In this document: piece after piece, positions 3,947-47,994 of the stretch | Layout of the letters: each line of letters starts with the position of its first letter | How positions within the stretch are numbered: position 1 is the first letter of the stretch | NCBI RefSeq assembly: GCF_902652685.1 | Contig: NZ_CACRUY010000001.1 | Span: forward strand, 124,001-188,000 | Direction: 5' to 3' | DNA length: 64,000 bases | Source of the DNA: Mycobacterium sp. Marseille-P9652 | GTDB lineage: Bacteria; Actinomycetota; Actinomycetes; Mycobacteriales; Mycobacteriaceae | Notes under the pieces: generated by a model | The model's input: the letters and a program-made list of their open reading frames with translations, nothing else | What the model was told of the DNA's origin: nothing | The model's database searches: none | Position numbers and translations under genes: made by a program

Positions 3947-4531
3947 ATGTCATCGGCCGTGCTCTCCCGGTATGCGTTGGACCCGGCGATGCCGGTGCTG
4001 CTGCGGCCCGACGGCGCCGTCCAGGTGGGCTGGGACCCGCGCCGCGCCGTCCTGGTGCGCCCGCCGGGTGGCCTGGCCGCCGCCGAACTGGCCGCCCTGC
4101 TGCGGTCGATGCGGTCGCCGACGCCGATCGCCGATCTGCAACGGCACGCGGCGCGCAGCGGGCTGGGGGACGCCGACGGGCTGCGCCGCCTCGTCGAGCA
4201 ACTGGTCGGCGCGGGCGTCGTCACCGAGTGCGGCCAGTCCCGGGGACGGGCGGCGTCGATCCGGGTGCACGGCCGCGGGCCCCTGTCGGAACTCCTCGTC
4301 GACGCGCTGCGCTGCTCGGGGGCCCGGGTGGCCCACAGCAGCCAGCCGCACGCCGGGGTGTCGCCCGACGCCGTCGATCTAGTGGTGCTCGCGGACTACC
4401 TGGTCGCCGATCCGCGCCTGGTCCGCGAGCTGCACGGGCAGGGCGTCGCGCACCTCCCGGTACGCGTGCGCGACGGCACAGGCCTGGTCGGGCCGCTCGT
4501 GGTGCCCGGCGTGACCAGCTGCCTTGTATAG
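3947..4531 (+). pseudogene. Rv3196-like cyclodehydratase/TOMM leader-binding protein, 5' part, cut by the element
   Basis: The N-terminal two thirds of a protein of the Rv3196 family, related to TOMM cyclodehydratase/precursor-binding proteins. The reading begins MSSAVLSRYALDP and runs to PGVTSCL. It then enters foreign DNA at 4525 and stops after one further codon (TAG 4529-4531). The missing C-terminus, starting with the same TSCL, is at 47987-48277. In the intact family the next residues form a Cys-x-x-Cys pair that probably binds zinc, so this fragment lacks half of it. A GTG at 3929 could add six residues. Whether the truncated protein is made is unknown. Confidence 0.93.
4517..4524 (+). 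other. attL core
   Basis: The 8-bp sequence agctgcct at the left boundary is identical to 47987-47994. To its left is host coding sequence (…GGC GTG ACC); to its right is element DNA (tgtatagcacta). Large serine integrases cross over at a 2-bp dinucleotide inside such short cores, so the exact crossover lies somewhere in these 8 bases. Confidence 0.9.
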
Positions 4532-4626
4532 CACTAAGGGGGCCTACTTACGTATCGGTTCACCTCCCGCCAGTTGTCACCCACCAGAGGGATACTGGGA
4601 ACACCCGTTCGAGAGGAGGTCAGATA

Positions 4627-5460
4627 GTGCTGACGATGGTGGCGGTCATCGTGGTCGGGTTGATGGCGTGGGTCCTGGCAATGAACGCTGCGGCGCTCTG
4701 GCGACATGCCGAACTGCGACAGGACTACCGACAGACGGTGCGGGCGATCCGGTGGTGGATGTTCCTCCTGGCACCCGCTGTCTTGTTCGTTGTGGTAGCG
4801 GTATCCGCTGCGCTGATCTATTTTCTGCCGTCAATGGCGATCGGTTGGTGGCGACTACTCGGAGGCCAGGGCAACATCGTGCTCGGCCGGACCCACAATG
4901 CTGGCATTGGCTGGCACCTGATGGCGATTGTGTTACCGGTCGGATTCGGGATTCTCGTTCCCCAGCTTGCAGCCGACGAAGAGTTTAAGTACCGGTTGGG
5001 TTCGGAGGACGAGAACCTCCCGCAGCGGTTGCTCCGGCAGTTCCTCTTCGGCATGCGTCACCTGCTGATGGGTATTCCGATCGCGGCAGGTCTGGCGCTG
5101 ACTTTCGGCGGCCTGTACTACATGGCCGTGTACCTGCGGGCTGTCCGGCGACTCTCACCCGAGATTGAGGCAGCGATGCAACCTCCTCGGTTCGAGCGGC
5201 TACCCTACCCCCGCATGGCCGGGACGGCCCGAAGCCGTGAAGACTGGGAGGCACACGACCGAGAGTGGGAGCGGGTCCACGCCGAGAACAGCCGGCTGTT
5301 CGACGAATGGGCTAACTCTCTCGAAGACTTTCCCGAGGCAGCAGCGGAACGCGTCGCGCGATTGAAACGCCGGGCCGTGTTCGAAGCCGCCGCCGCGCAC
5401 GCCGTCTTTAATTGGACCCTCTTAGGCATCCTCGCGGTAATGACGCTGGTCATGCTCTGA
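4627..5460 (+). CDS. Multi-pass membrane protein, unknown
   Basis: The first gene inside the left end. GTG 4627 is chosen because AGGAGGT (4614-4620) sits six bases upstream. The 277-residue product has a membrane helix at the N-terminus, others near residues 45-70, 95-115 and 145-165, a soluble acidic/basic segment (about 175-250) containing heptad-like charged residues, and a last helix at the C-terminus. No enzyme motif is visible. It runs toward the two leftward genes that follow it. Function unknown; it could be a membrane effector or an exclusion protein, but nothing in the sequence decides this. Confidence 0.7.
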   Translation: MLTMVAVIVVGLMAWVLAMNAAALWRHAELRQDYRQTVRAIRWWMFLLAPAVLFVVVAVSAALIYFLPSMAIGWWRLLGGQGNIVLGRTHNAGIGWHLMAIVLPVGFGILVPQLAADEEFKYRLGSEDENLPQRLLRQFLFGMRHLLMGIPIAAGLALTFGGLYYMAVYLRAVRRLSPEIEAAMQPPRFERLPYPRMAGTARSREDWEAHDREWERVHAENSRLFDEWANSLEDFPEAAAERVARLKRRAVFEAAAAHAVFNWTLLGILAVMTLVML

Positions 5461-5537
5461 CTACCCGGGGGCTGCCTGCGTGTCATAACAGGGAATGACC
5501 TAACCCATCTACATGGTGGAAGCCGCCCCGCTGGGGA

Positions 5538-6125
5538 CTACGTGCTGTCCTCGGCGTCGTGCGCAACCTCTATGGGGTCTAGGTTTGCCGGGTCGACGAC
5601 GTACTCGTCCTCACCAGGACGGAGGACATGAAAGTGGGCCAGTAGCTGACTAGCGCCGACCGTGACGGTCCACAATTTGCCCGGCTTCCAGTCGGGCCTG
5701 TCATACCGACGACGCTGAAACCACACAGCCCGGTCACGGTCGACGGTCCACGACATTCCGGTTCTCTTTACACCGCCGCGCCACAGCGTGAGCTTGAAGT
5801 CTGGCGGCGGGGGCGGCCAACTCGGCGGCCAACTCACGAAAGAATCTTCGATATAGCCGACAGCCCGGAACATTGCCAGCCACTCGTGGGTCGGCAGACA
5901 TTGCTCAGGTGGGTCCGACCCTGTCCACGCATAGGCGATAGCGATGGGACGCTGCTCGTTCGGAAGGATTTCCCACAGCCGGGACAGCAGCAAGGGCTGT
6001 TCGTTGGAAACCCCGAAGCCCAGTTCATTGACCAGTGACGTCCAGAGCGTCGTTGGGTCGGCCTGCATTCGGTTGACCGCTTCCTCGATACGCGCATCCA
6101 CATCACCCTGCCCGGCGTTGGTCAT
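5538..6125 (-). CDS. Hypothetical protein with ART-like core
   Basis: A 195-residue soluble protein. The centre has LWRGG followed by GMSWTVDRDRAVWF, which resembles the R-then-S-W-T-x-D-x-x-x-A pattern seen in predicted ADP-ribosyltransferase-like proteins of phages and mobile elements. This is a motif resemblance only; no catalytic Glu could be assigned. A proline-rich loop precedes the motif. It lies 48 bp downstream of the CoiA-like gene and is probably co-transcribed. A decayed relative of its N-terminal half is at about 8800-9015, so the element once carried two copies. Confidence 0.65.
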   Translation of the reverse strand: MTNAGQGDVDARIEEAVNRMQADPTTLWTSLVNELGFGVSNEQPLLLSRLWEILPNEQRPIAIAYAWTGSDPPEQCLPTHEWLAMFRAVGYIEDSFVSWPPSWPPPPPDFKLTLWRGGVKRTGMSWTVDRDRAVWFQRRRYDRPDWKPGKLWTVTVGASQLLAHFHVLRPGEDEYVVDPANLDPIEVAHDAEDST

Positions 6126-6173: not shown

Positions 6174-7235
6174 TTATGCCCCACGACGTTCCCTTTGCCA
6201 GCACGCCTCGCAGATGCCGCGGTCGCGGCTGATCGGTGCCCAAAGCGGTTGATGGCAGGTAGAGCAACTCGCTTCTGGTTCGGGCAGCTCGGGGACGCGG
6301 CGCGGTGGCGGTTGGGCTGAGGGGGCCGCTGGTAGTAGCGGTGCACGTTTCTCGACTGCCGGGCGGTCGGTCGGGTGCGCGGTACATTCGCGGGTGACAG
6401 CTTGCACGATTTCCCGCTGCCGTGGTGTCGAGCCGTCCGGTTTCCAAAGCGACGCCCCAGGCCCAGCGCACGAGTCGATGACCTCGATGGCCTCCTTGTA
6501 GGCGAGGCTGACTTGCCCTTTGGCACCTGTCGCGACGGCGACAATCTCGCCGGCGGGCATTAGGACGGCCAATTCGTCGAGCAGCACCGCGGTCGGCTCG
6601 CGGCGATACCACCAGCCCGAGGGGCGGCTGCCGTCCCGTTCGCGAATCAGCTTGCCGATGATCACGCGGGCGCTGTTGGCCGGCGGCATAACGTCCCAGC
6701 CTCGCACGGTCAGCCGGGCGGTTGGAACATGATCGGCCCAGTCGGGGTCGCGTTCGGTGTCGCTTACCCACGCCGTGGGCCAGCCCGCCTCAAACGACTT
6801 CATTGCGCGGACCTTGGCCCGGGCTCGTGACAGCTGAGAGCGCTGAACTTCAAACCCAACATCATGCAACCCGCTAACCGCGACGTCGAGGCGGGTGCCG
6901 TTCCCGGTCGACTTCTCCAGCACCGCGGGCAGGCCGGCCTCGGCGGCGGCCCGGCAGGTGTATTCCGCCTGCCGGCGGTGCTCGTCGGACATGGTGGTTA
7001 TGCGGTGACAGTGCCCATCAGAGTTGCCGCCCGGGTAATGCCTCGCATAGAAGCGGCCGGTGTGGTGTCGGTAGACGTACATTGGCTCACCGTTGCCCAG
7101 GCAGGTGAGCACGGCGGGCGCCGGTGGCGGGTCGATGTGCCCATGCAGGCTGACGATCTCGTTGTAAAGCCCGGCGGGCAGTTCGGCGAGGTCGATGTCG
7201 ATGCCGCGTGGATTGTAGCGAACGAGGGTGGTCAT
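6174..7235 (-). CDS. CoiA-like putative nuclease with C-terminal zinc ribbon
   Basis: A 353-residue protein. The region around residues 80-170 has SDEHRRQAEYT, then a D in RLDVAV and FEVQRS: the spacing of the CoiA-like domain, whose D-to-ExQ signature is a restriction-endonuclease fold active site. The C-terminus carries two Cys pairs, CSTC and CEAC, forming a probable zinc ribbon. CoiA-like proteins act on DNA during competence or in mobile elements. ATG 7235 is chosen because the upstream extension to 7295 has no conserved look. It is followed by the ART-like gene on the same strand. Confidence 0.65.
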   Translation of the reverse strand: MTTLVRYNPRGIDIDLAELPAGLYNEIVSLHGHIDPPPAPAVLTCLGNGEPMYVYRHHTGRFYARHYPGGNSDGHCHRITTMSDEHRRQAEYTCRAAAEAGLPAVLEKSTGNGTRLDVAVSGLHDVGFEVQRSQLSRARAKVRAMKSFEAGWPTAWVSDTERDPDWADHVPTARLTVRGWDVMPPANSARVIIGKLIRERDGSRPSGWWYRREPTAVLLDELAVLMPAGEIVAVATGAKGQVSLAYKEAIEVIDSCAGPGASLWKPDGSTPRQREIVQAVTRECTAHPTDRPAVEKRAPLLPAAPSAQPPPRRVPELPEPEASCSTCHQPLWAPISRDRGICEACWQRERRGA

Positions 7236-7419
7236 GCAATCGCGTCGTTCCGGTGGTTCTTGCTGTGCTCGCAGCCGTCGATGAGGGGTCGGCATCAGTC
7301 GGCAACCGTGACGTCACCAAGGATAATCCCGCCACGAACCCAGCGTCACGTGCGCCGAGACAACCCGCACCTGGCGACGTCATTTCAGCGACGAGAACCG
7401 ACAGAACCGATGGCCCTTC

Positions 7420-7656: not shown

Positions 7657-8442
7657 CTACGTCGCTGACCGCTTTGGTTTTTCGACGTGAGTGTCGATCA
7701 GAAAGCCCGCGACGGCGAAGCCGGCATTGACGGCCAGCTTCGCGTGCCGAGGTGCGGGTCGGACGGAAGCCTTGCCACGTCCGTGGGAGTCGCTGAGGCT
7801 GTTGCGCATCGCCGCCAGCCCATTCACGACGGTGCCTACCCCACTTAGAATCTGCTTGATGATTTGCTCGGTATGTTGATCCGGTGCGATGTCCATAGCC
7901 GCCGCAGCCGCCTTGTACAGCTTCGAGAGCTCGCCGCTGTCGTCGTACGGAGCGCCACGCTCTTCACAGATGTGTTTGCAGATGCTCTCCAGCGTGGTCC
8001 TCGTCGCGGTGATCGCACCCTCGGGGTCACTGACGACCTTGGCCAGGGCGGAATCCCACGTCCGCCGGACTGCTTCCCAGTCCTCGAGTTGGTCGAGCCT
8101 GTCCGAGGCGGCCATTGCGCCCGGCGCAGCCCCCTCGAGCAACATGCCGCGCAACTTGGCGATGTGCTCATCTGAGGGCCTTGGGTACTTACTTGGACCG
8201 TCGTATGTGCAGAGGTCGAGCAGGAGGCGACGTTGGTCATCGACCGAGAGGCTATCGAGCCCTGTTTGGAACAGTTCCCAGCGGGAAGGACCGCCACTAC
8301 CCATGGTGTACGGACCGAGCACGTCGGTGTAGTCGGCGAACAGTTGGTGAATCTCGGGGCCACTGAACCCGGTGTCGCGCGCGAACATATCGGTCGCGAG
8401 CTTGACGATGCGATACGGCAACCCGACCTTCGGCTTCGGCAC
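7657..8442 (-). CDS. Abortive-infection C-terminal domain (Abi_C) protein
   Basis: A 261-residue protein. The C-terminal half matches the Abi_C pattern: DPEGAITATRTTLES followed by CKHI, a short loop, then a helix, GLAAMRNSLSDSHG, and a last helical segment with NAGFAVAGFL. The N-terminal half is helical and unrecognised. Proteins with this domain are linked to phage abortive infection, though the mechanism is unclear. GTG 8442 is chosen because TGGAAGG (8451-8457) lies eight bases upstream and the N-terminus MPKPKVGLPYR follows; a TTG at 8472 is possible. It is a stand-alone gene in the island. Confidence 0.72.
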   Translation of the reverse strand: MPKPKVGLPYRIVKLATDMFARDTGFSGPEIHQLFADYTDVLGPYTMGSGGPSRWELFQTGLDSLSVDDQRRLLLDLCTYDGPSKYPRPSDEHIAKLRGMLLEGAAPGAMAASDRLDQLEDWEAVRRTWDSALAKVVSDPEGAITATRTTLESICKHICEERGAPYDDSGELSKLYKAAAAAMDIAPDQHTEQIIKQILSGVGTVVNGLAAMRNSLSDSHGRGKASVRPAPRHAKLAVNAGFAVAGFLIDTHVEKPKRSAT

Positions 8443-8562
8443 GATCACATCCTTCCACCTGGGGTTGACCAATCCTGACCCCCTAACTCCCGGCGAGCCG
8501 TCCCAGGAACAGGCAGATGGTTTCCGCTTTGTAACCTTGCTGACCGGCGTATAACAAGCGGG

Positions 8563-8796: not shown

Positions 8797-8799
8797 CCC

Positions 8800-9612: not shown

Positions 9613-9935
9613 GGTTGGTGCTCCCGTCTTGACCGGCAGCGCCAGCTACCAGCCCCGGCCTTCTCCGAAGGGCACCGTGCCGGGTGGCGCGGTTGCCGTC
9701 CGCCCACGTCGGAGGCGTGCGGGCGAATCTCTTGGCCGTGGTCAACAGTACAGAGCTAAGAGGCGATGGGGCCGAGCCCCATGGAGCTGATGACGGCGAC
9801 GACAGGAGGTCTGGGAAGTCGCCGGTCAGCTTGTAGGCCGGGTAGACAGCGCTCCCAGTTTCGTCGAGGATCACCGTGTGACCGCAGTCACAGGACGGTC
9901 TTTCGGTTACACGCGTGCTTGTGAGAAGGGACGCC
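9613..9935 (-). other. Gene debris, with a zinc-ribbon-like remnant
   Basis: No intact gene. On the minus strand about 9905-9820 reads SCDCGHTVILDETG followed by YPAYKLTGDFPD, which looks like the start of a small Cys-x-Cys protein, but there is no start codon in place and the frame soon turns into improbable sequence. The promoter of the downstream caspase gene must also lie here; no convincing -10/-35 pair was picked out. Confidence 0.35.
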
Positions 9936-12900
9936 ATGATGCCCAACGAGGCAAAGGCAGACACAAGACTTTTCGCTTTGCTCGTGGGGATCGACACCTA
10001 TGAGGCGGTCAATGGCCTGCAGGGTTGCGTCAACGACGTCGAAGCGATGCAGATCCTGTTGATGAACCGCTACGCCGTTCCTGACAAGCGGATCCGATTG
10101 CTGGTCAACGCGCAAGCAACCCGCAGAGGCATGCTGGAGGCCTTCGCTGACCACCTGATCAACAACCCCGATATCCGGCGCGGTGATCAGATCTTGTTCC
10201 ACTACAGCGGGCACGGCTCACAGAGCCCGGCGCGCCCCGAGGACTACGAACCCGACGGGCTTAACGAGACACTCGTCCCCTATGACAGCCGCCTCGCTGA
10301 CGGGTACGACATCACCGACAAGGAGCTGGCTTGCCTGCTTGACCGACTGGCCTCTGCCAAAGGCGATCACATCACGGTCATCCTGGATTGCTGTCACTCG
10401 GGCTCGGGCACGCGTGCTCCGCAGAGCGATTCAGCTGCGCGTGTACGTCGCGTGCCGGCCGACACTCGCATGCCGCCTGCCGGTCTAGATGCCGATCTGG
10501 TCGGGCCAAGGGGGGGAGATCCTCGATCGGCAGGGTTGTCCGCGGGGGAAGCAAACCGGTTGCCGTACGTGCTTTTGGCGGGCTGCCGGGACGAGGAACT
10601 GTCCTACGAGTACTACGGCAGTGTCGAAGACTCCGCCGCCTGGCACGGTGCGCTGACCTTCTTCACTCTCACAACGTGGCGGCAGCTGCCGGAGGGTGCC
10701 ACCTACAGCGAGCTCTACGACCGCGTCGCACCGCTGGTGAACGCAGAGTATCGAAGTCAGATGCCGCAGTGCGAGGGCGATCGCGATCGCGTCATCTTCA
10801 GCGGTGTCCGGGTTGAGCGCGACCCCCTCATCTCGGTGCACGCGGTCAGCCCGGACGGGGCCGCCGTGCAGCTCGCCGCCGGTCTGGTTCATGGCCTGCA
10901 CCCCGGAACGCAGTTGGCGATCTATCCGCCCGAGGTGCGCACCAAGTCGGAGATCCAGCAGAACCCGCTGGTCACGGTCGGCGTTGTGTCGGTGACTGCG
11001 ACCACCGCCGAGGCGACGCTCAACGGGCAGGCGACGCAGCCCATCATCGCCGGCGCCCGGGCGCTAATCACCGAGCAGTCCGATACCGGGCTGCGCCTAG
11101 CCGTGCGGCTCGCCGGCGACGAAGTTCACCGCGACGCGCTCGACAGGCTGCGCGCCGAGATCGCCGGTGACCCCCTCTCGCCCTATCTGCGGATCGAGGA
11201 CGACCCGGGTGCCCCTGCCGACCTTGTCGTGGTGGCACACAATCAGACGCTCGGCATATACGGCGACGCCGACATCGAGACCCCATTGGTGGAGCCGTTC
11301 GCTATTACTCCCGCTGGGGCGCAAGGTGACCCGATTCTCAGTGCGCGGAGGGCGCTGGAGAGCATCGTACGTTTCCGCGCTGTGCTGAACCTGAGCAACA
11401 ACACCGGCTCCACGCTCAACGGAAAGGTCAGACTGGGGCTGCGCCGCTACCTTCCTGACGGGCGCCGCGCGGAGAGTCTGCCGGCTGAGGCGATCGGGCC
11501 CGGTGGTGAGCTGTCGGTCTACTTCGATCCGCGCGACAGCTCGCGCAACCTGTGGGTCGTCGACGTGTACAACGACTCTGACGTCGATGTGTACCCCCAC
11601 GTGTTCACGCTGAGCCCGGACTACAGCATCAAGCGGCTCTACCCGGGGGTCGGTCAACCGGACACCTTTGCGCCCGGTCAGAGTGAGCCGTTTCCGGTCG
11701 GCCTCGCGAACAAGACAACGCAACTGGAACTGACGCTGCCCGAGGGCTGGGACGCCTCCCGCGACTACGTCAAAGCCATCGTGACGACTCAACCCAGCGA
11801 TCTCGGGATGCTCGCCCAGGACGCACTGACCGTTCCGGCACCCGTGCGCGCGGCAGACCGGGGGCCGCGATCGGCGATTGAGAAGTTGATCGACGCGGTC
11901 ACCTTCGGCCAGCAGACACGCTTCGCCTCCCCATACACGCCCGTGGACGAACAGGATTGGACGGTGGCGCAGCTGGCCATCAACACCATCCGCAAGTACC
12001 GCACGATCGAGCTGTCGCCGCGGGCCGATCGTGTTGCGTTGGCCGATGGTCTGACCCTGATCAAGCCTGAAGGGTTCACCGGCTCCGTCACGGTCACCAC
12101 GCTGGGATCGGCCACCCGTGGCGAGCTCGCCGACACCGACCTGCGTCCACCCCCAGGCCTGGCGTGCTGCCCAGACACCTTCCGACTGACGGGAAGGCCG
12201 GGAACACGTGGCCTGGGCCCCACGGGACTGATCCTGGGACTTGACATTGACGATGCGGCGCGTCGCGGGATCTCAGCGGACAATCCGTTGCGTATCGAGC
12301 TGCCCCCGGCAGAGCTGCACGGCGCCACGGACATGTGGCCGGTCATCTTCGACGGCGAGGACTACCTTCTCGCCGGCTACGGCGGCGAGGACAGCGTCGT
12401 GAACGTGGTCTCGCTGCCGACGCCGGTCACCACCCTCACAGACGGCGGCCGCCGCCCGACCACCCGGGGGCTTGGCCGCACCCTCCGCCTATTCATCTAC
12501 AAGAAGCTGGGCCGGCATACTCCCGAACTCGCGTTGAGGCGCGCGGATCTCGAAGACAATCAGGTGATCTACCACCCCGCAGAGCCTGGGCAGATACGCC
12601 GCGGGCAACGGGTTGCGCTGTTCATCCACGGGCTGGTGTCGGACACACGCTGGATGATCCAGGGGCCCGCGCAGTTCCTGCGCGCGCGGGTAGCGCGGTA
12701 CGACCACTTTTTAACTTGGGATTACGAGTCGTTCGGCACCGGCGCCGAACATAGCGGCGAGCAGTTGGCGCTCGCACTGCGACGGCAGTGCGGCTTTGGC
12801 CCCGACGACGACATTACGGTCGATATCTATGCGCACAGCTTGGGCACCCTGGTGGCTCGGTGCCTGATCGAACTGTCGGGTGGACACGCTTTTATCGACC

Positions 12901-13427
12901 GCGCTGTCCTCGCCGGTCCGCCCAACCACGGTTCCACGCTGGCCACGACCGGCCGCATGTTGGCGTTCCTGGTCACTCACTTGCTCAACCGGGCCTCGGT
13001 GATTCCGCTCCTAGGTTCCCTGAACTGGCCGCTGAAGTATCTCTACGAGCAAGGCGTCGCGCTCGCCGACTTGGCTGTCGACTCTCCGCTCACGACAAAA
13101 CTTAACAGGCTCGAGGCGCCGTCCAATGTTCCCTATCTGGTGTTGGCCGGAAAAAATCTGCAGAACGAGGCTGAGCCAAACCGCGTAAAGCGGCTCGCGA
13201 CAAAGATTTTCGACAAAGGGCTCTACGAACTCTTCGGCGACGATAACGACATCGCGATCGGCCTCACGAGCATGCTGGGGCTGCGCGATCATGCTTACCC
13301 CCTGCTGACCGCCGAGACCCTTCCGTGTGACCACTTCCAGTATTACGCCACGCCGGAAGGTCAGCAGGCCATACAAAGGTGGGCACAGCTGACGCGCCCT
13401 GTTCCCTCGGACACTTGGCCCCGATGA
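9936..13427 (+). CDS. Caspase-family protease fused to a C-terminal alpha/beta hydrolase
   Basis: A 1,163-residue protein. Residues 10-290 form a caspase/metacaspase (C14) domain, with the catalytic His in HYSGHGSQ (His93) and the catalytic Cys in LDCCHSG (Cys153). A long middle part (about 290-880) is beta-rich with no recognised enzyme motif and could be a binding or regulatory region. The C-terminus is a lipase-like alpha/beta hydrolase: oxyanion motif FIHGL (about 896) and nucleophile elbow AHSLG (Ser about 968). ATG 9936 follows AAGGGA; a GTG at 9915 is less likely. Its stop overlaps the start of the CHAT gene (ATGA), so the two are translated as a unit. Likely a protease/lipase effector of a cell-suicide or immune system (inference). 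Confidence 0.85.
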   Translation: MMPNEAKADTRLFALLVGIDTYEAVNGLQGCVNDVEAMQILLMNRYAVPDKRIRLLVNAQATRRGMLEAFADHLINNPDIRRGDQILFHYSGHGSQSPARPEDYEPDGLNETLVPYDSRLADGYDITDKELACLLDRLASAKGDHITVILDCCHSGSGTRAPQSDSAARVRRVPADTRMPPAGLDADLVGPRGGDPRSAGLSAGEANRLPYVLLAGCRDEELSYEYYGSVEDSAAWHGALTFFTLTTWRQLPEGATYSELYDRVAPLVNAEYRSQMPQCEGDRDRVIFSGVRVERDPLISVHAVSPDGAAVQLAAGLVHGLHPGTQLAIYPPEVRTKSEIQQNPLVTVGVVSVTATTAEATLNGQATQPIIAGARALITEQSDTGLRLAVRLAGDEVHRDALDRLRAEIAGDPLSPYLRIEDDPGAPADLVVVAHNQTLGIYGDADIETPLVEPFAITPAGAQGDPILSARRALESIVRFRAVLNLSNNTGSTLNGKVRLGLRRYLPDGRRAESLPAEAIGPGGELSVYFDPRDSSRNLWVVDVYNDSDVDVYPHVFTLSPDYSIKRLYPGVGQPDTFAPGQSEPFPVGLANKTTQLELTLPEGWDASRDYVKAIVTTQPSDLGMLAQDALTVPAPVRAADRGPRSAIEKLIDAVTFGQQTRFASPYTPVDEQDWTVAQLAINTIRKYRTIELSPRADRVALADGLTLIKPEGFTGSVTVTTLGSATRGELADTDLRPPPGLACCPDTFRLTGRPGTRGLGPTGLILGLDIDDAARRGISADNPLRIELPPAELHGATDMWPVIFDGEDYLLAGYGGEDSVVNVVSLPTPVTTLTDGGRRPTTRGLGRTLRLFIYKKLGRHTPELALRRADLEDNQVIYHPAEPGQIRRGQRVALFIHGLVSDTRWMIQGPAQFLRARVARYDHFLTWDYESFGTGAEHSGEQLALALRRQCGFGPDDDITVDIYAHSLGTLVARCLIELSGGHAFIDRAVLAGPPNHGSTLATTGRMLAFLVTHLLNRASVIPLLGSLNWPLKYLYEQGVALADLAVDSPLTTKLNRLEAPSNVPYLVLAGKNLQNEAEPNRVKRLATKIFDKGLYELFGDDNDIAIGLTSMLGLRDHAYPLLTAETLPCDHFQYYATPEGQQAIQRWAQLTRPVPSDTWPR

Positions 13428-17973: not shown

Positions 17974-17981
17974 CGCGGTGA

Positions 17982-37300: not shown

Positions 37301-37504
37301 CTGCTTGGCGATGTCCCCAGAGCCTGGCTTCACGACCTTCGCCAGCTGTTCGGGCTGGGTGTCGGCCAGCCAGCCGAGGACGTCTTCTGGGAATAGGGCA
37401 CGTTCGCGGTCGTAGCCGTCGTCATTGGGCGAGTAGAACCAGCCGTGAGCGGCGAGGTATTCGGCGAGTTCCTTTTCAAACTCGATCTCATTGTGCTGCG
37501 CCAC
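34379..37504 (-). CDS. hsdR: Type I restriction enzyme R subunit
   Basis: A 1,041-residue HsdR. The N-terminal nuclease has the PD-(D/E)xK pattern SVDLVFFVNG to AELKT (near residues 145-165). The SF2 helicase follows with Walker A HSAGSGKTDS (near 322), the DEAH box IADEAHSS (near 437), YFAFTATPKAK and later TGFDQPLL and LSRLNR. It translocates DNA and cuts unmodified sites together with HsdM and HsdS. GTG 37504 lies one base after the hsdS stop. The frame is complete and shows no lesions. Confidence 0.93.
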   Translation of the reverse strand: MAQHNEIEFEKELAEYLAAHGWFYSPNDDGYDRERALFPEDVLGWLADTQPEQLAKVVKPGSGDIAKQQAQLFDRIAKVLDTPLDNGGGTLSLLRKGFSHLAAKFQMCVFKPESTLNEKRNAHYAAVRVRVVRQVHFSTADRRSVDLVFFVNGLPVATAELKTYFTQTVSEAITQYKTSRLPKDPATGAVQPLFVSGARALVHFAVSNDEVWMTTKLSDDTTHFLPFNRGAEDGGAGNPLNPNGSKSAYLWERVLQRDAWLNILGRLMYIKHESSTDPISGKTTKSSSLRFPRFHQWEAVTELTAAVTAEGVGKRYLVQHSAGSGKTDSIAWTAHRMARLQVNNHKVFDSVIVVTDRNVLDAQLQDAIKQIDNDQGIVVAIDRDEDAKAGGESKSKSGLLAKALIEGKLIIVVTIQTFPFAMAEIRKNKGLKGKTFAVIADEAHSSQSGQIAGKLKAVLTAEELREMEEGGEIDVEAVLAAEATERAESANISYFAFTATPKAKTLELFGRKPTPDEAPLPFHVYTMKQAIEEGYILDVLTGYHSFKLAFQVGQNAAGGEVDQAQATKEVMRWVKLNPQTITQKAAIIVEHFRENVAHLLDGHAKAMVVTDSRKAAVRYKLAIDAFIAQKGYGYGTLVAFSGTVHDPESGPDDFTESTMNPGVHDLRTSFRGDQYKVMIVANKFQTGFDQPLLCAMYVDRILSGVTAVQTLSRLNRTYRTPSGVQKTATMTQVVDFVNEPEEIRKAFEPYFTDAFLETETDPNLVHDLAAKLDTAGIYTEAEIDQCAKAFVTNKGNNALAAAVDPGKKRFAERYQAALIDNGGEGDKAALAELDMFRKDVGSFVRLYDFMSQIIDYGDPALEKKQIYLRNLERVIQPDNYTAPIDLSDVVLKQVKQIDRGRIDISLGMRVGLSGITAAGSGEKRDPKMVAFQQVLDRLNDLFGSEDFTEPQKVSFLEALLRTLLDDHALVQQAKVNSAKQFVESPDFDDAVTGAVADNQGAHEKMSDYFFTNAPGRAHLITDIAKWFHQVVADQAGKVGLQ

Positions 37505-37505
37505 G

Positions 37506-38726: not shown

Positions 38727-40459
38727 TTCTCCACCTCCCGTAGCAATTCCAAGATCTTTGCGACCTGCTTCTCCAGGTCCGCGTCGATTTCGGCGAGCGG
38801 CCGGGGCGGGACGTACTTGTAGAAGTGGCGGGTAAAAGGAATCTCATACCCAACTTTTGTCTTCGCGGCGTCGACCCAGGCGTCGGCGACGTGCGGACGC
38901 ACCTCGGCTTCGAAGTACGCCTTGATCGTCGATGTCCGGCCCGCGTCACCCTCGGTGTTGCCGCCGTAGGTGAAAGGCACGTTCTCGGTGTCGCGCTTCT
39001 TCGCGTCCGGTTTCGGGTTGCCTTTACGGTCGGTCATCGGCTTCCCGTCCTCGTCGAGTAGCGCCCGTTCGACGGTAATGGTCCAGTAAGCGAAGTCGTT
39101 GACGGTGAACACTTTCGAGAAGTCGGAGTCGGCCTCTTCGAACGCGTCGTAGAGCGCGAGGATGCGCTCGCGGGACGCGGTGTCGACCTCGCGGTTTTTC
39201 GCACCGAGGTTCTTGCGAAGCTTTGTCCAGAACGACGTCGCGTCGATCAACTGGACCTTGCCGACGCGCTCAGGGCGCTTGGTGTTGTCCAGGACCCAGA
39301 TGTAGGTGGCTATGCCGGTGTTGAAGAACATGTTCGTCGGCAGCGCAATGATGGTTTCCACCAGATCCGACTCGAGCAACCATTGACGGATCTTCGACGG
39401 GCCGGATTCGGCGGCGCCGTTGAACAGTGGCGAGCCGTTCAACACGATGCCGCCTCGACCGCCGCCTTCGTGAGCAGGTCGCATCTTGTGCGCGAGGTGA
39501 CACAGAAACAGCATCTGGCCGTCACCGATCGAAGGCAGACCGTGTGAGAACCTAGAACCGGTGGCGAGCGCTTCCTTCTCGACGGCCCCGTGCGAGGCCT
39601 TCCAGTCAAAACCGTACGGTGGGTTGGACATACAGAAATCGAAGGTGCGGTCCCAGAACTGGTCGTCGGCCAAGGTGTCGCCCAGGCGGATGTTGCCAGC
39701 GTCCTGACCCTTGGCGATCATGTCGGACTTGCAGATCGCGTACGACTGGTCGTTGATCTCCTGCCCGTACAAGCGCAGCCGGGCGTCCGGATTGCGTTCC
39801 AGCAACCGCTCCTCGGCGACCGAAAGCATGCCGCCCGTGCCGGCCGTGGGGTCGTAGATCGTTCGGACGGTGCCGGGTTCGAGCAGGGCCTTATTGTCCT
39901 CCGCGAACAGGAGATCGACCATGAGTCGGATCGCGTCACGCGGCGTGTAATGTTCGCCTGCTTCCTCGTTGGAGGCCTCAGCGAACTTATAGATCAGGTG
40001 CTCGAACAGGTCTCCCATCTCGGCGTTGGGCACCGTGTCGGGGTGCAGGTCCACCTCGGAGAACTTCGACGTCACCAGGTACAGCCGGTTCTTCTCGTCC
40101 AGCGTCGCCAGCTCGTTCTCGAACTTGAACCGCTCGAAAACGTCGATGTTGGCCGAGAACCCGGTGATGTAGTCCATCAGGTTCGCCCGCAGGCCCTCGG
40201 GATCCTCCAGCAGCCGCGCGAAGTCAAAGTGGCTGGTGTTGTAGAAGGAAAGCCCCGTCTTGCGCTTAACCTGTACGTCCAGCGCTCCCCCGACGTACTT
40301 CGCGGCCAGCGTTCGCACCTCGTCGCGAGTGGGTTCGAGGACGCAGTCGAGGCGTCGGAGGATCGTGAACGGCAGAATAACCCCGCCGTACTGGTGCGGC
40401 TTGTACACGCCGCGCAGCTGGTCGGCGATCCCCCACACGAAGTTGCCTAGCTTGCTCAA
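38723..40459 (-). CDS. hsdM: Type I restriction enzyme M subunit (N6-adenine methyltransferase)
   Basis: A 578-residue HsdM. The N-terminus SKLGNFVWGIADQLRGVYKP is the family helical domain. AdoMet motif YDPTAGTGGML lies near residue 205 and the catalytic motif SNPPYGFDWK near 275, both intact. TTG 40459 is chosen: AGAGGGAG sits about six bases upstream and the family N-terminus starts here; a longer frame to 40513 reads unlike HsdM. First gene of the operon hsdM-hsdS-hsdR-methyltransferase-like. Promoter presumably in 40460-40670, shared with the divergent DUF488 gene. Confidence 0.93.
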   Translation of the reverse strand: MSKLGNFVWGIADQLRGVYKPHQYGGVILPFTILRRLDCVLEPTRDEVRTLAAKYVGGALDVQVKRKTGLSFYNTSHFDFARLLEDPEGLRANLMDYITGFSANIDVFERFKFENELATLDEKNRLYLVTSKFSEVDLHPDTVPNAEMGDLFEHLIYKFAEASNEEAGEHYTPRDAIRLMVDLLFAEDNKALLEPGTVRTIYDPTAGTGGMLSVAEERLLERNPDARLRLYGQEINDQSYAICKSDMIAKGQDAGNIRLGDTLADDQFWDRTFDFCMSNPPYGFDWKASHGAVEKEALATGSRFSHGLPSIGDGQMLFLCHLAHKMRPAHEGGGRGGIVLNGSPLFNGAAESGPSKIRQWLLESDLVETIIALPTNMFFNTGIATYIWVLDNTKRPERVGKVQLIDATSFWTKLRKNLGAKNREVDTASRERILALYDAFEEADSDFSKVFTVNDFAYWTITVERALLDEDGKPMTDRKGNPKPDAKKRDTENVPFTYGGNTEGDAGRTSTIKAYFEAEVRPHVADAWVDAAKTKVGYEIPFTRHFYKYVPPRPLAEIDADLEKQVAKILELLREVEK

Positions 40460-40670
40460 ACCCGTGCTCCCTCTGGCCGTCCCGCATTCAGGCCTGGCAC
40501 GCACTCTAGCCACAGCAGGCCAGGTTTACGGCGGCGTTGGCGAGGCCGTCATGTTTCGGACGGGAACCACCGCGAAACTTGCGTGCGGTAATCCTGCGAC
40601 GTGTCGACCAAGACTCCTGAGGCTTGGTCACGGTCGCGTTGCGGCGCCGGGGGTTCCGGCACCCCACTCT

Positions 40671-43249: not shown

Positions 43250-44485
43250 TCAGTCCGACTCCGCACTCCCTCGCCGATCCTGCGCGCAGTCGGGATGACT
43301 CCCCCGGGCAAGGCCCGTAATCGGTCGTGAGCACACCGAGCACGGGTTCGCCAGGGCGTAGAGGTGGGACTTTCGCGGTCCCGGGGTGCGGGTCAGGGTG
43401 CACTGAAGAACACCTTGCCTCAGCGCCGGGTCGATGGTGCGGGCGTTGCGGCCAAATCTCTTGGCCTCCTTGAGGATGGCGTTCCGGGTCAGCTCGGTGC
43501 CCTCGCCGCTAGCTAGGTGCTCGACCAGGATCTCGATGACCTCGTTGAGCACCTCGTCCTCGTTGGCTCGGCGCGCACGTGCCTGCCGGGTACCGTCCGT
43601 GTAGGTCAACCGCCGGGTGTCGGCGTCGAAGTCCAAGCGACCCTCGGGCACGTCGACGTCACGCCCGTAGGCGGTGAAGTACACGGGCGAGTCGGGTGCG
43701 TCCTTCTCGCGGACCAGCCGCCAAATGGCATCGGGCCAGTCCTGCAGCCGGGAATCGCCCCGGGCTCGTTCGCCCGAGTGGCCCATGTGGTGGACGACGA
43801 CTGCTTCGCCGATGCCGGAATCGGCCAGCAGGGCGTCGAAGGCCACAAGGAACCGGCCGGCATCGTGGTTCTCGTCGAGGCCCAGTGCGTCCAGCACCGG
43901 GCGCAGGCAGTCGAGGATCAGGTAGTCGGCCCCGCGGAGGCGCTCGGCCCACTCCGCCCGCACGTCCTCGTTGAAAATGTTGAAGGCGCCGAGGTGCCCG
44001 CGCATGGTCACCACGTCGACGCGGTCGGCGTTGGTGATGCGCTGATCCCGGAACCAGCGGCGCAAGGTGTTCTCCGCCAGCTCGTCATCGATGAGCACGG
44101 CGCGCCGCGTCTGGGTGGTCACCGGGAACCGGCCCAGGAACGGGTCGCCGTCGGCTAGGGACCGCAGCAGGTTGCCGACCAGGGTGCTCTTGCCCGCCTT
44201 GTATTGGGCCGCCAGCAATACGCGTCCCTGGGCCGGTGCCAGCCGATCGATGCGGTACTCGGCATCGGCATCGGGCTCTGCGAGCAGTTCGGCCAAGCTG
44301 CGAAACGCGGGAAGGGGGGACGGTGGGTGGACCTCCTGGTCGAAAAGCAGCTTTGCCTCGTGTTTGGCGCGCAGTACGCCGAGCTGGTAATCGACGTCTT
44401 CCTTGAAGCTGCCGTCACCGTCCGATCCGCTCCGGTTGGACATCGTCTCGAACTGCGTCTCGCGGCAGGGCCCGGTTACCGCCAT
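43250..44485 (-). CDS. RepA-like AAA ATPase (replicative helicase type)
   Basis: A 411-residue P-loop protein. Walker A QYKAGKSTL lies near residue 97, Walker B YLILDCLRP near 190, and HHMGHSGERARGDS near 235 is the sensor-like motif of RepA/DnaB-type (AAA_25) ATPases. The C-terminus carries a Cys pair, CSVCSRP, and a later Cys. It would unwind or load at the element origin. Its start overlaps the primase stop by 10 bp, so the two are co-translated. Analogous genes sit in phiRv1/phiRv2-type elements. Confidence 0.8.
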   Translation of the reverse strand: MAVTGPCRETQFETMSNRSGSDGDGSFKEDVDYQLGVLRAKHEAKLLFDQEVHPPSPLPAFRSLAELLAEPDADAEYRIDRLAPAQGRVLLAAQYKAGKSTLVGNLLRSLADGDPFLGRFPVTTQTRRAVLIDDELAENTLRRWFRDQRITNADRVDVVTMRGHLGAFNIFNEDVRAEWAERLRGADYLILDCLRPVLDALGLDENHDAGRFLVAFDALLADSGIGEAVVVHHMGHSGERARGDSRLQDWPDAIWRLVREKDAPDSPVYFTAYGRDVDVPEGRLDFDADTRRLTYTDGTRQARARRANEDEVLNEVIEILVEHLASGEGTELTRNAILKEAKRFGRNARTIDPALRQGVLQCTLTRTPGPRKSHLYALANPCSVCSRPITGLARGSHPDCAQDRRGSAESD

Positions 44486-45369
44486 GGTCCCTCCTGGACG
44501 AGGACCGCGGCGATCGCGTCGCAGATCGTGCGCTCGACTTCGTCGGAGCGCAGCCCGGCATCGGCGGCGGCGTCGGCCAGCGCGGCATAGATGGGGTCAT
44601 CTTCGTCGATGAGGCCCTCGTCGGCGGCACGGCAGGCCGCCCAGTACAAGACTGAGTGGCGTTGGCCCTCCGAGGCGTTAGCCACAGTGCGTACCAGGCC
44701 CCGGCACTTCCGCCGGGCTGCGCTGGGGGACAACCGCCTGCCGTGACGCCCGGGGCGATGTCTTGGTGCCCGTTCCGGCCTGGCAGCCAGCTCGCACAGC
44801 CACCGGGGGGCGACGGCGATGTCGGCCAGCGGCTGCTCGAACGTGTAGGGCCTCTCGGTGAGCCCGTGCAGGCTGGGCGGCATGACCACGAAGTTCCGGT
44901 CGTGGCAGAGAATGTCAACGCCGCGGCACAAAGTGCTCCGTACCGGCGCCTCGAAGCCGTCGAACCACAGGTGGCGACCGCCGTCGCCGCGGCCGCTGAT
45001 CGTCGTCAAGGTCTCGGGGAGCGGGCCATGCTCGGCCTCAAACTCGAGCAGCGCGACGTCTCCACCGTGGCGGGGGTCGACATCGAGGACAATCTGGCCT
45101 GGGTGCGGCCTAGCGCCGATCCCGTGGTCGGGATGTTCGGCCCAGTGCCGGTCGGCCCACTCCACGTCGCAGCTGGCGTCGTAGAACCCGTGGCCCATCA
45201 ATCCACATGCTCCGCGGCACTTCCCCTTTTCCCGGCTGTGCCAGGGGTGCGGGCTGGCCAGCGCCGGGGTCTTGCTACATGGGAACAGCGGTATGGTTGC
45301 GAACCCGCACTCGCGGTAGGCGGTGGCCACCTGGCGGTAGTCCTCCCGGTATCGGTAGTGACTAGGCAT
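44476..45369 (-). CDS. Prim-pol domain DNA primase/polymerase
   Basis: A 297-residue protein with a bifunctional primase-polymerase domain: YRECGFATIPLFPCSKTP, VLDVDPRHGGD (catalytic Asp pair), then SGRGDGGRHLWF and VDILCHDRNFVVMPPSLHG. It would make primers for element replication. ATG 45369 follows GGAGGAGGGGAG, a strong site; the frame open to 45474 is only upstream noise. It is overlapped at both ends by neighbouring genes, as in a compact phage-like operon. Confidence 0.88.
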   Translation of the reverse strand: MPSHYRYREDYRQVATAYRECGFATIPLFPCSKTPALASPHPWHSREKGKCRGACGLMGHGFYDASCDVEWADRHWAEHPDHGIGARPHPGQIVLDVDPRHGGDVALLEFEAEHGPLPETLTTISGRGDGGRHLWFDGFEAPVRSTLCRGVDILCHDRNFVVMPPSLHGLTERPYTFEQPLADIAVAPRWLCELAARPERAPRHRPGRHGRRLSPSAARRKCRGLVRTVANASEGQRHSVLYWAACRAADEGLIDEDDPIYAALADAAADAGLRSDEVERTICDAIAAVLVQEGPWR

Positions 45370-45829
45370 GGTCTCCCCTCCTCCTGCTGGCGCGGCGGTC
45401 TTTCTCCGTCCTCCCAGAAGCCCCGGAAATACGCTGAGGCCTATCGCCCTCGGGGTGGGGGGTAAGTGCCTCACCGTCCGTCACGGCGGCTAGGGGGCGC
45501 ACTTCGTACACCCGGAACCAGGCGGTGTCGCCCCCCGCGAGCGAGCCGTTGGGTCGCCTAGACACAGAGCCAAACGCCACCGCGTACTCGGTTAGGTGTG
45601 GGCGCTTAATTTCCGCATTGACCTCGATGATCGTCCCTGTCTTGCCGCGAAATTGCGGCCAGGTGCCCTTGGTCGGGTACCGCGTCTGGTCGCGTTCGAT
45701 GCGGACTCGCTCGCCGACGGTCAGCTCGGAAACGCCTTGCCCGTTCGGGGTGGTGTCATCGCCACCGGGGTGCCTCCGACGTTTGCGAACCGAGTGGCTT
45801 TTCCCAGCGTTCGAGGCGATCGTGGTCAC
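45362..45829 (-). CDS. Hypothetical phage-type protein
   Basis: A 155-residue basic protein. GTG 45829 is chosen because it overlaps the stop of the preceding small gene (GTGA). The middle has GERVRIERDQTRYPTKGTW and FRGKTGTIIEVNAE, which looks like a small SH3/KOW-like beta barrel; the two ends are basic and disordered (VRKRRRHPGG, KDRRASRRRG). Part of the replication operon; function unknown. Confidence 0.6.
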   Translation of the reverse strand: MTTIASNAGKSHSVRKRRRHPGGDDTTPNGQGVSELTVGERVRIERDQTRYPTKGTWPQFRGKTGTIIEVNAEIKRPHLTEYAVAFGSVSRRPNGSLAGGDTAWFRVYEVRPLAAVTDGEALTPHPEGDRPQRISGASGRTEKDRRASRRRGDHA

Positions 45830-45966
45830 GATGCCGCCTCCAGGGCGCGCGGCCGGACTGGCCGGAGTAATTCGCACAGCCTGATCCGCTGCTCGTCGCT
45901 GAGCGGGGGCGCTTCGGCCAGGATCTTCTCGACGTAGTCATCGATAGCCGGGCTGACCTCAGACAT
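45826..45966 (-). CDS. Very small phage-type protein (46 residues)
   Basis: MSEVSPAIDDYVEKILAEAP, then LSDEQRIRLCELLRPVRP and a short tail. The pattern of a helix followed by a P-L-S/T-x-E-Q-R-x-x-L helix is common in tiny genes of mycobacterial prophage-like elements. It overlaps the 45959-46213 gene at one end and the 45829 start at the other by a few bases, which strongly supports that it is translated. Confidence 0.65.
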   Translation of the reverse strand: MSEVSPAIDDYVEKILAEAPPLSDEQRIRLCELLRPVRPRALEAAS

Positions 45967-46213
45967 GCGCACCCCCGCCGGGGCCCCGCTTGGCGTTGAG
46001 CAGGGAGATTAGGTCGTCGATCTGTTCGTCGGTCAGCGACGGGGTGGCGACCAACGCCAAGCGCACGTGTTCTTTGAGCTTGAGCGCGCGAAGGTTCCTG
46101 CGCGCCTCGATTAGGTCGGGATCGTCGGGGGAACGCTCTCCGTTCTTCACACAGCGAGCCAAAGCGGCCACGCGGGCGCGTTCAAACTCCCAGGAACGGG
46201 ACGGTATGGACAT
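45959..46213 (-). CDS. Small helical phage-type protein
   Basis: An 84-residue protein starting MSIPSRSWEFERARVAALAR, helical throughout, with SLTDEQIDDLISLLN near the end, similar in style to its downstream neighbour. ATG 46213 is preferred over a GTG at 46255. It is the first gene of the leftward replication operon, 231 bp downstream of the integrase stop. A role as a directionality factor for the integrase is conceivable but not shown. Confidence 0.6.
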   Translation of the reverse strand: MSIPSRSWEFERARVAALARCVKNGERSPDDPDLIEARRNLRALKLKEHVRLALVATPSLTDEQIDDLISLLNAKRGPGGGAHV

Positions 46214-46364
46214 GGCTGGGACCTCCGGGCAGTTGAAGAACACTGCCCCGTCCACAGCCCCGACCCGGCGACCTCAGGGGATACATCATTGCTCACGGTT
46301 CGCCCCCGTCTTCAGTGTCCGGGTCGGCGCACTTCAGGGGACCGCGTGACAATGGTAGAAGGAG

Positions 46365-46404: not shown

Positions 46405-46444
46405 ATCACACGGAGCGCATCCGTCTTAAGGAGCGCTTGTTGAG

Positions 46445-47947
46445 TCAGTGGTGTCCATTCCAGGTCACCCGAACCGTTTCCGGTTCAAAGCCGGGCCCGT
46501 GCTTCTCGCGGGGGATCAGGACCACCTCCATGCCGAGCGTCTCCAGCACGGCCCGTCGGGCGGATACCGGCATCGCCTCCCAGTTCTCGGCGGCCTTCGG
46601 TCCGGCGAGCTTTCGCAACACATCGATGTCTAGGGATTGGACCGCGGCGTCACGCTCGCGGCGGGTGGCCTCCAATTCAGGTGCCAGCCGGGCGGTGATG
46701 CGCTCGAGCTGGCGAATGGTGATCTTCCCGTCGGCCTGGGAGTCGGCGGCCTCGTCAAGGCGCTGCTGCAGCTGATCACACCGTTCCGATAGTCGGCGGG
46801 CCCGGTCATCATCTCCCAGCAGCCAGTCCAGCGCGTCGGGCTTGGCAAGGCGCCCAATGACCACCCTCGCAACGAGGTCGTCGACGGGTTCCTGCAGGCG
46901 TCCGGTGCAGCCACCGCCGTCGAGACACAGATAGATGCGAGTACCGTTGCCCCGTCGGCCACCGCGACGGGCGACCCGGAGCGGACCACCACACACACCG
47001 CACTTGCCGATTCCGCCAGTCAGTAGATGCTTGCGAGCACCGGGTCGCGGGCCGCTGTGACTGCGCCGCTCCGGCGACGCGAGCAGAGCCACCACACGAT
47101 CGTGCTTGGCGCGGTCCACGATCGGCGGCCAATCGCCGGGCATCTCGGTGCCGCCGTCGTCGCGCTTCCGATAACGGCGGATGCCCGCGTTGGCGTCACG
47201 TAGAAGCAACGTCCTCACTGTGCTCTTGGCCCACGTTTCTGCCGGGATCTTGCGGCCCTTGGATTCCCGCTGCTTGCGCACCTCCGGCGACATCTTCATC
47301 CACTGCGAAAAGCCGGGGGATGGTTCACCTCGGGCGTTCATGTCGCGGTAAAGCTCGTTCAGCGACACGCCCGCGAGCACGCGGTCTACCAGCTCTCGCA
47401 CGATGCGTGCTTCACGCTCGTTGACAACTTGATTTGCATGGATACCCCGGCCTGTCCGGTCCCAGCCGTACGGGCAATAGCCCCACGCTTTCCCGCGCCT
47501 CGCCAGGTCCGCGATGGCCGCCGACACCCGTTCGGCCTTTACCTCGCCCTCCATGGAGTCGAACGCGGTCATCATGTCGGCCAAACCCCGCCCGTAGGCA
47601 GATCGCAGCTCCAGCGATGGCCCCTTAACGGCGATCACGTCGACGTTGTGCTTACCGAAGGTGGTGATCACCTCGGCGCGGTCCTTGCGGGACCGCATCA
47701 GGCGCGAGGATTGCCAGACGATGACGTGATCGACCCGCTCCGAGACGACCAGCTCCCAGACCTTGTCGTATCCGGGCCTGCGCAATGCCTTACTGGCGGT
47801 GACGTCGTTCTCTACGATCTCGTCGGCGACCTCATAACTGCGCGCCTGGGCCAACTCGCGCATGTCGTGAAGTTGGCGGTTGACGCCGATCTCCTCGCCG
47901 GTTTTGTCCACGCTGATCCGCGCGTAGAGCACAGCCCGTTCCGCCAC
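46445..47947 (-). CDS. int: Large serine integrase
   Basis: A 500-residue large serine recombinase. The resolvase domain starts AVLYARISVDKTGEE (catalytic Ser near residue 12) with IVWQSSRLMRSRKDRAEV; the recombinase domain follows with WGYCPYGWDRTGRG and AGIRRYRKRDDGG; a zinc ribbon has CGVCGG and a later Cys; a coiled coil (RLSERCDQLQQRLDEA) and a C-terminal segment complete the family layout. Its start is 39 bp from the right core, as expected for an integrase that acts at attP. It would insert the element in the Rv3196-like gene. Confidence 0.95.
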   Translation of the reverse strand: MAERAVLYARISVDKTGEEIGVNRQLHDMRELAQARSYEVADEIVENDVTASKALRRPGYDKVWELVVSERVDHVIVWQSSRLMRSRKDRAEVITTFGKHNVDVIAVKGPSLELRSAYGRGLADMMTAFDSMEGEVKAERVSAAIADLARRGKAWGYCPYGWDRTGRGIHANQVVNEREARIVRELVDRVLAGVSLNELYRDMNARGEPSPGFSQWMKMSPEVRKQRESKGRKIPAETWAKSTVRTLLLRDANAGIRRYRKRDDGGTEMPGDWPPIVDRAKHDRVVALLASPERRSHSGPRPGARKHLLTGGIGKCGVCGGPLRVARRGGRRGNGTRIYLCLDGGGCTGRLQEPVDDLVARVVIGRLAKPDALDWLLGDDDRARRLSERCDQLQQRLDEAADSQADGKITIRQLERITARLAPELEATRRERDAAVQSLDIDVLRKLAGPKAAENWEAMPVSARRAVLETLGMEVVLIPREKHGPGFEPETVRVTWNGHH

Positions 47948-47986
47948 CCGACCCCTCGATAAAGTAGTTCCTTTTTAGATGGTACT

Positions 47987-47994
47987 AGCTGCCT
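47987..47994 (+). other. attR core
   Basis: Second copy of agctgcct. Left of it is element DNA (ttagatggtact); right of it, gggatgcgcgg resumes the host gene. Joining 4516 directly to 47987 rebuilds the uninterrupted attB: the codons read G-V-T-S-C-L-G-C-A-D-L-H, as in the Rv3196 family. The inferred attP is the element right end, the core, then tgtatagcacta. Confidence 0.9.

Follow-up and report, generated by a model that had tools for sequence, protein, structure and literature searches.

A 43.5-kb island with its own serine integrase and putative defence genes splits an Rv3196-family gene in Mycobacterium sp. Marseille-P9652

The window analysed here is a 64,000-nucleotide stretch of the genome of Mycobacterium sp. 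Marseille-P9652 (contig NZ_CACRUY010000001.1, positions 124,001 to 188,000; genome of 5.70 Mb in 128 contigs), and all coordinates below are counted from its first letter. Within it, an island of 43,470 bp (4520 to 47990) interrupts a conserved protein-coding gene that we take to belong to the Rv3196 family. With a probability of roughly 0.8, we read it as an integrative, satellite-like defence island with its own serine integrase, from an integrase lineage that has changed its target gene and that acts at this target without repairing it. The split of the gene is precise, four other genomes have elements with related integrases at the identical codon, and a more distant group of integrases uses an unrelated gene whose 3′ end, where traced, it replaces.

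Results

The borders of the island and the split host gene

The features that define the island ends are the following.

3947..4531, forward strand: N-terminal part of the target gene, truncated at attL (host sequence 3947-4516, then S-C-L-V-stop; 217 amino acids)
4517..4524, forward strand: attL core AGCTGCCT, with the putative exchange dinucleotide TG at 4520-4521
4525..4557, forward strand: island-side att arm of the left end (arm symmetry pooled over five elements)
45959..46255, reverse strand: 98-amino-acid gene downstream of the integrase (tblastn counterparts in L059, L060 and L061; similar frames by eye in L053 and L056)
46445..47947, reverse strand: large serine integrase, 500 amino acids (PF00239 2.1e-24, PF07508 5.7e-12; phrog_95 2.2e-87)
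47954..47986, forward strand: island-side att arm of the right end (the right-end arms of both target groups agree best in one register)
47987..47994, forward strand: attR core AGCTGCCT, with the putative exchange dinucleotide TG at 47990-47991
47987..48277, forward strand: C-terminal part of the target gene with CxxC and CxC motifs, severed from its start and open to its end

The N-terminal part of the target gene (N-part, 3947-4516) is matched in 140 of 148 genus genomes and the C-terminal part (C-part, 47987-48277) in 378 of 396, the own genome being included in both counts. Searched separately, the two parts lie on adjacent bases in 19/19 relative loci, these being the best 19 of the 139 other genomes that match the N-part, and the N-part occurs only once in the own genome at E <= 0.001. 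Most relatives of the N-part have an open frame of at least ~280 amino acids, compared with 217 here. An island inside this gene, 43.47 kb in size, had been proposed by a sequence-only reading of the same DNA; both statements are correct, and the uninterrupted gene that it suggested looking for in related genomes is present in all 19 relatives fetched. That reading had also derived the borders from the 8-bp duplicate AGCTGCCT. The two copies are indeed there and the borders hold, but the octamer alone was dropped as proof, its frequency being at chance level (2 copies in the window against 1.51 expected; at least 2 in 44 of 100 shuffles), and the borders therefore rest on the split gene.

The frequency of AGCTGCCT, which is about that expected, would agree with an assembly artefact or a chance octamer as the source of the junctions. 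However, the two gene parts abut in relatives, the integrase stands where an integrated element would have it, and elements at the same codon occur in four other genomes, two of which (G621 and G084) are assembled as a single contig, so that an assembly join, named earlier as what would overturn the island, is exceedingly improbable.

The surroundings of the target are partly shared among the relative loci: within the ~1.5 kb of flank covered, an ABC1-kinase gene lies near the target in 18/19 and a hydrolase further upstream in 13/19, and the gene of 259 amino acids directly upstream of the target recurs in 2/19.

Five elements at one codon

The integrase gene lies 39 bp inside the right junction. 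Its product qualifies as a large serine recombinase, with a Zn ribbon match of 19.0 bits that stays under the cut-off of that profile (25.3). An uninterrupted attB in relatives, a short core common to attL and attR, and an integrase at one end together mark the island as a serine-integrase element. Matches to the integrase at E <= 1e-60 were found in 15 of 396 genus genomes, and five of these integrases (own, G621, G670, G678 and G084) adjoin the C-part of this target gene, whose N-part stands across the element at its opposite end. The integrases of the four other elements are 56-81% identical to that of the window (tblastn), and each element whose integrase reaches at least 56% identity (5/5, own included) sits at the same codon. 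The elements measure about 43.5 (own), 30.0 (G621), 8.5 (G670), 15.8 (G678) and 11.4 kb (G084). In a wider search at E <= 1e-100 the clade was met once in an order sample of 397 (own) and twice in a relatives sample of 148 (own and G084).

The content of the sister elements is varied. The G621 element has matches to DrmA and DrmB of DISARM (L052 17028-19996) and to a caspase; the G084 element has a kinase and a tetratricopeptide repeat (TPR) protein matching PDC-M71A and PDC-M71B, together with a Toprim hit under the cut-off; the G670 element encodes an AAA_25 protein whose Toprim hit falls just short of the cut-off; and the G678 element packs genes for terminase, portal, protease, capsid, tape measure and connector into less than 16 kb (L057 487-10928). 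The cargo differs among the five elements, and therefore one integrase clade and one landing site serve differing cargo.

Downstream of the integrase, at ~45830-46255, two small frames have a common APPL-DEQ-like stretch, which recurs by eye after related integrases. The 98-amino-acid gene in this region is, by its position only, a candidate directionality or regulatory factor.

The exchange dinucleotide

The stretch common to attL and attR is 8 bases long in the own element, 10 in G621, 11 in G670 and 14 in G678; in G084 it is broken by mismatches, and ACCAG, TG and CT remain around the junction. By eye, the comparison over the five elements leaves TG or CT as the exchange dinucleotide, and because CT also remains it was not retained as the sole pointer to TG. 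When the arms of the five elements are pooled, their symmetry peaks at TG, with 69/162 complementary pairs (0/5000 shuffles as high), and the CT centre, with 25/150 pairs, is the lowest or near the lowest of 19 centres tested. The codon for the first zinc-motif cysteine, which TG opens, is TGC, as it is in 19/19 empty sites. Judged from the pooled arms, strand exchange most likely occurs at TG within the codon of the first zinc-motif cysteine.

A sister integrase group that uses an MBL-fold hydrolase gene and repairs it

Thirteen more distant integrases, 38-47% identical to that of the window (ten from the genus scan at E <= 1e-60 and three from a family sample), all lie beside the C-terminal part of a metallo-β-lactamase (MBL)-fold hydrolase gene; the Rv3196-family gene and this hydrolase gene are the two targets of the integrase lineage. 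In a tree of 21 integrases, a single branch parts the five Rv3196-type integrases from the others with support of 93/91, and 0/500 label shuffles reached so low a value; the branches of two phage rows are very long. The right-end arms of both groups agree in one register with a mean identity of 0.376, compared with at most 0.301 in 20 other shifts (8/5000 column shuffles as high). By this register the exchange dinucleotide of the MBL group would be TT, in the Phe codon of GDCLF. The idea of a metal-ligand codon as the point of attack in both targets was dropped, since the TT falls in the Phe codon after GDCL. Scored against a matrix of 29 intact MBL sites, the Rv3196 sites are best in the predicted register of 61.

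In 13/13 MBL-type genomes the N-part of the hydrolase is contiguous with a C-part, besides the piece next to the integrase. Nine of these genomes have both pieces on one contig, 9.6-16.6 kb apart, and in 9/9 it is the integrase-side piece, not the attached one, that resembles the own-genome hydrolase more. In G045, the host N-part runs into a diverged C-part in a full-length frame, and the displaced C-part lies beside the integrase ~9.9 kb away; G024 has the same pattern, with no integrase match in the 18 kb examined. The hydrolase pieces of G178, G501, G688 and G701 are on different contigs, where the element is not traceable. Where it can be traced, the 3′ end of the full-length hydrolase comes, as read from these junctions, from the element, which keeps the gene whole.

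The substitute end is also found in phages. All 12 Mycobacterium phage records whose integrase is 44.5-45.1% identical have an MBL tail ~30 bases from the integrase match, annotated as hydrolase or as hypothetical protein; two further phage records match the tail, and in phage Kratio it lies 18 bases from the annotated integrase gene. A substitute end of 60 codons for the adjoining MBL-fold hydrolase gene was seen both in elements and in Kratio/Larva-type phages (L101, L103-L129 and L066).

The Rv3196 group lacks such an end. From the N-part to the stop there are 4 (own), 6 (G621), 6 (G670), 53 (G678) and 34 (G084) residues, and none of these extensions ends in CxC. A second C-part was not found inside the five Rv3196-type elements (best chance match E 0.093), and the C-part had no match at E <= 0.001 among 50,697 phage records. 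Because 0/5 of these elements carry a substitute 3′ end, their integration truncates the Rv3196-family gene.

The target protein and what the insertion removes

The one intact relative scanned (L006) matches TIGR03882, the leader-peptide-binding family of thiazole/oxazole-modified microcin (TOMM) systems, with 37.6 bits at a cut-off of 36.9; neither the N-part alone nor the C-part alone gives this match. LynD is hit weakly (E 0.0076) by a profile built from ten intact relatives, in an alignment that covers the first CxxC pair; TruD follows at E 0.082. The proposal that the target is a TOMM-type relative is supported by the match just above the cut-off and by the weak LynD profile match. Among the 19 relatives, the CxxC cysteines are conserved in 19/19 each and the CxC cysteines in 18/18 and 17/17 aligned rows. 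At attL the frame reads S-C-L-V past the N-part and then stops, and the truncated protein therefore keeps only the first of the four C-part cysteines. The loss of the zinc-binding C-terminal part, as it had been described from the sequence, holds, with this single retained cysteine as a refinement.

The stranded C-parts have premature stops in 0/5 elements. The ratio of silent to other changes specific to the own genome is 7:3 in the C-part and 10:6 in the N-part. The insertion is probably recent or reversible, given that neither part of the gene has lost its open frame or its conservation; the data fit both and prove neither.

Genes and cargo of the island

Open reading frames (ORFs) of the island were scanned with Pfam (28) and with PHROGs (18), small ORFs being incompletely covered. 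The genes recognised, besides those of the integrase region, are listed here.

4627..5460, forward strand: predicted membrane protein (from its translation; no PHROG match)
5538..6125, reverse strand: left-end gene in common with the G621 element (72%; phrog_4776)
6174..7295, reverse strand: left-end gene in common with the G621 element (86%)
7657..8472, reverse strand: AbiJ-like protein with an abortive-infection C-terminal domain (PF14355 2.7e-21; PADLOC AbiJ 1.1e-21)
9915..13427, forward strand: caspase-domain protein with a C-terminal DUF7379 (PF00656 4.4e-18, PF24096 6e-13; PADLOC caspase 5.9e-32)
13379..17101, forward strand: TPR-S and CHAT protein, overlapping the caspase gene (PF12770 3.7e-47, PF20308 4.9e-13)
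17326..17973, reverse strand: predicted lipoprotein beside the hydrolase (from its translation only)
17982..19742, reverse strand: Hydro_N_hd/Abhydrolase_8 protein (PF22905 1.1e-78, PF06259 1.9e-26)
22332..23654, forward strand: glycosyltransferase (PF00534 8.8e-21)
27721..28371, reverse strand: OGG-like protein (PF21790 1.1e-42)
28548..30410, forward strand: OLD/GajA-like ATPase-TOPRIM protein (PF13175, PF20469; PADLOC GajA 4.1e-15)
30429..31025, reverse strand: small serine recombinase of the invertase/resolvase type (PF00239 1.2e-33; phrog_125)
31911..34430, reverse strand: N6-methyltransferase-domain protein (PF02384 1.2e-14)
34379..37504, reverse strand: type I restriction subunit R (PF18766, PF04313; PADLOC REase_I)
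37506..38726, reverse strand: type I specificity subunit S (PF01420 6e-9)
38723..40513, reverse strand: type I methylase subunit M (PF02384 2e-58, PF12161 8.7e-26)
43250..44485, reverse strand: AAA_25 helicase-like protein (PF13481 3.9e-23)
44476..45474, reverse strand: Prim-Pol primase/polymerase (PF09250 1.6e-24; PHROG DNA polymerase/primase)

The caspase and TPR-S/CHAT proteins, whose genes overlap, are possibly a two-protease defence pair; PADLOC names only the caspase of the two and gives no match for the TPR-S/CHAT protein. By eye, the His and Cys motifs of both (9915-17101) look intact. The type I restriction-modification (RM) block (34379-40513) has 80.7-82.3% DNA identity to five plasmid records, four from Rhodococcus and one from Mycolicibacterium alvei, and this likeness points to exchange with plasmids. 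Next to the small serine recombinase, ~500 bp at ~31192-31695 match an M. intracellulare plasmid of 24.6 kb with 92.5% identity; this plasmid-like stretch is perhaps a nested insertion. The lipoprotein and the Hydro_N_hd/Abhydrolase_8 protein (17326-19742), the latter with a WXG100-like match under the cut-off, recall prophage-borne ESX-type pairs.

Capsid, terminase, portal and tail genes were not recognised among the 28 Pfam-scanned or the 18 PHROGs-scanned ORFs, apart from one scaffold hit under the cut-off. Relaxase, FtsK/TraB and type IV secretion genes were likewise not found among the 28 Pfam-scanned ORFs, within the same coverage of small ORFs, and two stretches of the island have no near DNA match in the 50,697 phage records.

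Discussion

Alternative explanations

The nearest alternative is a phage satellite proper, resembling a phage-inducible chromosomal island (PICI), which would replicate on induction by a helper phage and be packaged in helper particles. We regard this as possible, at odds clearly below even. The island has Prim-Pol and AAA genes near its integrase, that is, the combination of integrase and replication gene seen in such satellites; a sister element using this site, that of G678, encodes terminase, portal, protease, capsid and tape-measure proteins; the hydrolase pieces of the MBL-type genomes stand 9.6-16.6 kb apart on one contig; and candidate PICIs with serine integrases have been reported from Mycobacterium (the part of PMC10654092 available to us). 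On the other hand, the scanned ORFs give no capsid, terminase, portal or tail match and hence no sign of capsid or packaging hijack, and 43.5 kb is large for a satellite. The phage-like G678 element, together with the related integrase of Kratio/Larva-type phages, could also speak for a decayed prophage that kept its integrase and accessory genes and gained cargo. This we consider unlikely, given that no structural gene was recognised among the scanned ORFs and that neither island stretch searched has a near DNA match in the phage records. Still less probable is a conjugative or mobilisable element, such as an integrative and conjugative element (ICE) or its actinomycete form (AICE): the cargo is partly plasmid-like (the type I RM block and the ~500 bp near 31.2-31.7 kb), but relaxase, FtsK/TraB and type IV secretion matches are lacking among the 28 ORFs.

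A satellite-like defence island with its own serine integrase remains our preferred reading, and several observations weigh against parts of it. Only five elements of this type were found, and tblastn at E <= 1e-5 detected no match to the own Prim-Pol and AAA proteins in the sister elements. Circularisation and excision are predictions, as are replication, transfer and defence, which are read from gene content. Only the pooled symmetry decides between TG and CT: the symmetry of single elements is weak, that of the own arms alone is not significant (2178/5000 shuffles as high) and was dropped as evidence, at the neighbouring centre 4.0 G621 and G670 reach an equal score, and G670 has by fraction more pairs at the CT centre (12/30) than at TG (12/33). 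The two attB sites are moderately alike, the median of the 19 Rv3196 sites reaching only the top 0.5% of 638,702 background positions under the MBL matrix and the worst site (L020) the top 16%; the matrix was therefore abandoned as a strong predictor of the Rv3196 site. The root of the integrase tree is weak (61/80), which leaves the direction of the target change poorly founded, and for this reason we only infer that the MBL target came first. Finally, the ratios of silent to other changes vary widely among the control relatives.

A proposed route of integration

Serine integrases bind both sites as dimers, cut at the central dinucleotide and rejoin the ends into attL and attR, and the reverse reaction requires a directionality factor. 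In the mechanism that we propose, a circular form, with the att arms now found at both island ends, would have recombined with the chromosomal attB in the Rv3196-family gene; integrase dimers on the island and host sites would have cut at the central dinucleotide and, after rejoining, left attL and attR. Excision would need a directionality factor, for which the 98-amino-acid gene beside the integrase is the positional candidate. The island may replicate through its own Prim-Pol and AAA proteins and, as neither conjugation nor virion genes were recognised, may move by hitch-hiking on a helper. It would pay its way by anti-phage cargo, namely type I restriction, the AbiJ-like protein, the caspase and CHAT proteins and the OLD-like protein.

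More tentatively, and with rather less than even confidence, we suggest that a repairing lineage adopted a further gene, unrelated to the first, by way of a cryptic likeness of attB and a different central dinucleotide (putatively TT in the MBL gene, TG here), without bringing a repair tail. Integration might then switch off a TOMM-type zinc protein reversibly, and satellites, phage remnants and defence islands of the genus might all use this codon to land.

Relation to known systems

The sequence-only reading had stressed a protein-coding target rather than a tRNA gene. The target is protein-coding, but this is less special than it was made to appear: in the available part of PMC8092301, M. 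abscessus has three serine-integrase sites, each disrupting the reading frame in which it lies, with core lengths of 5-8 bp, and an earlier study inferred thousands of integrases together with disrupted target genes (PMC10083194, likewise available in part). The Bxb1-type and M. abscessus MabI/MabJ prophages resemble the present island in their serine integrase, their short core (5-8 bp, same part of PMC8092301) and the disrupted reading frame; they use other targets (groEL1; MAB_2445, MAB_3230 and MAB_3265) and are prophages, whereas virion genes were not recognised here. The nearest phage integrases, 44.5-45.1% identical, are those of Kratio, Larva, Edugator and their kin (subcluster K5, a label found in print for only some of them). 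Unlike the island, these phages carry the 60-codon MBL tail beside the integrase, which points to another target gene, and a repaired one. The Mycobacterium candidate PICIs are, in the available part of PMC10654092, similar in having an integrase and, in some cases, replication genes, and some have serine integrases away from tRNA genes; they were found by a capsid gene, and none was recognised in this island. Known defence islands likewise combine type I RM, Abi, OLD/Gabija-like and caspase genes, several of them side by side; the present island differs in that its borders and integrase are resolved and other elements use its landing site. A literature search for Rv3196 and integrase did not find this landing site in print, and PMC10654092 does not mention "Rv3196" in its main text, the supplementary attB tables being outside this scope.

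Integration of serine integrases into coding genes is thus already well known, and what is less expected is a pair of sister groups, one of which repairs its target and one of which does not. For a large mycobacterial defence island, borders are now available at nearly base level. Five elements at one codon with differing cargo make this site a shared landing site for defence genes, and the repairing and non-repairing sister integrase groups offer a testable case of how targets change and what such a change costs the host.

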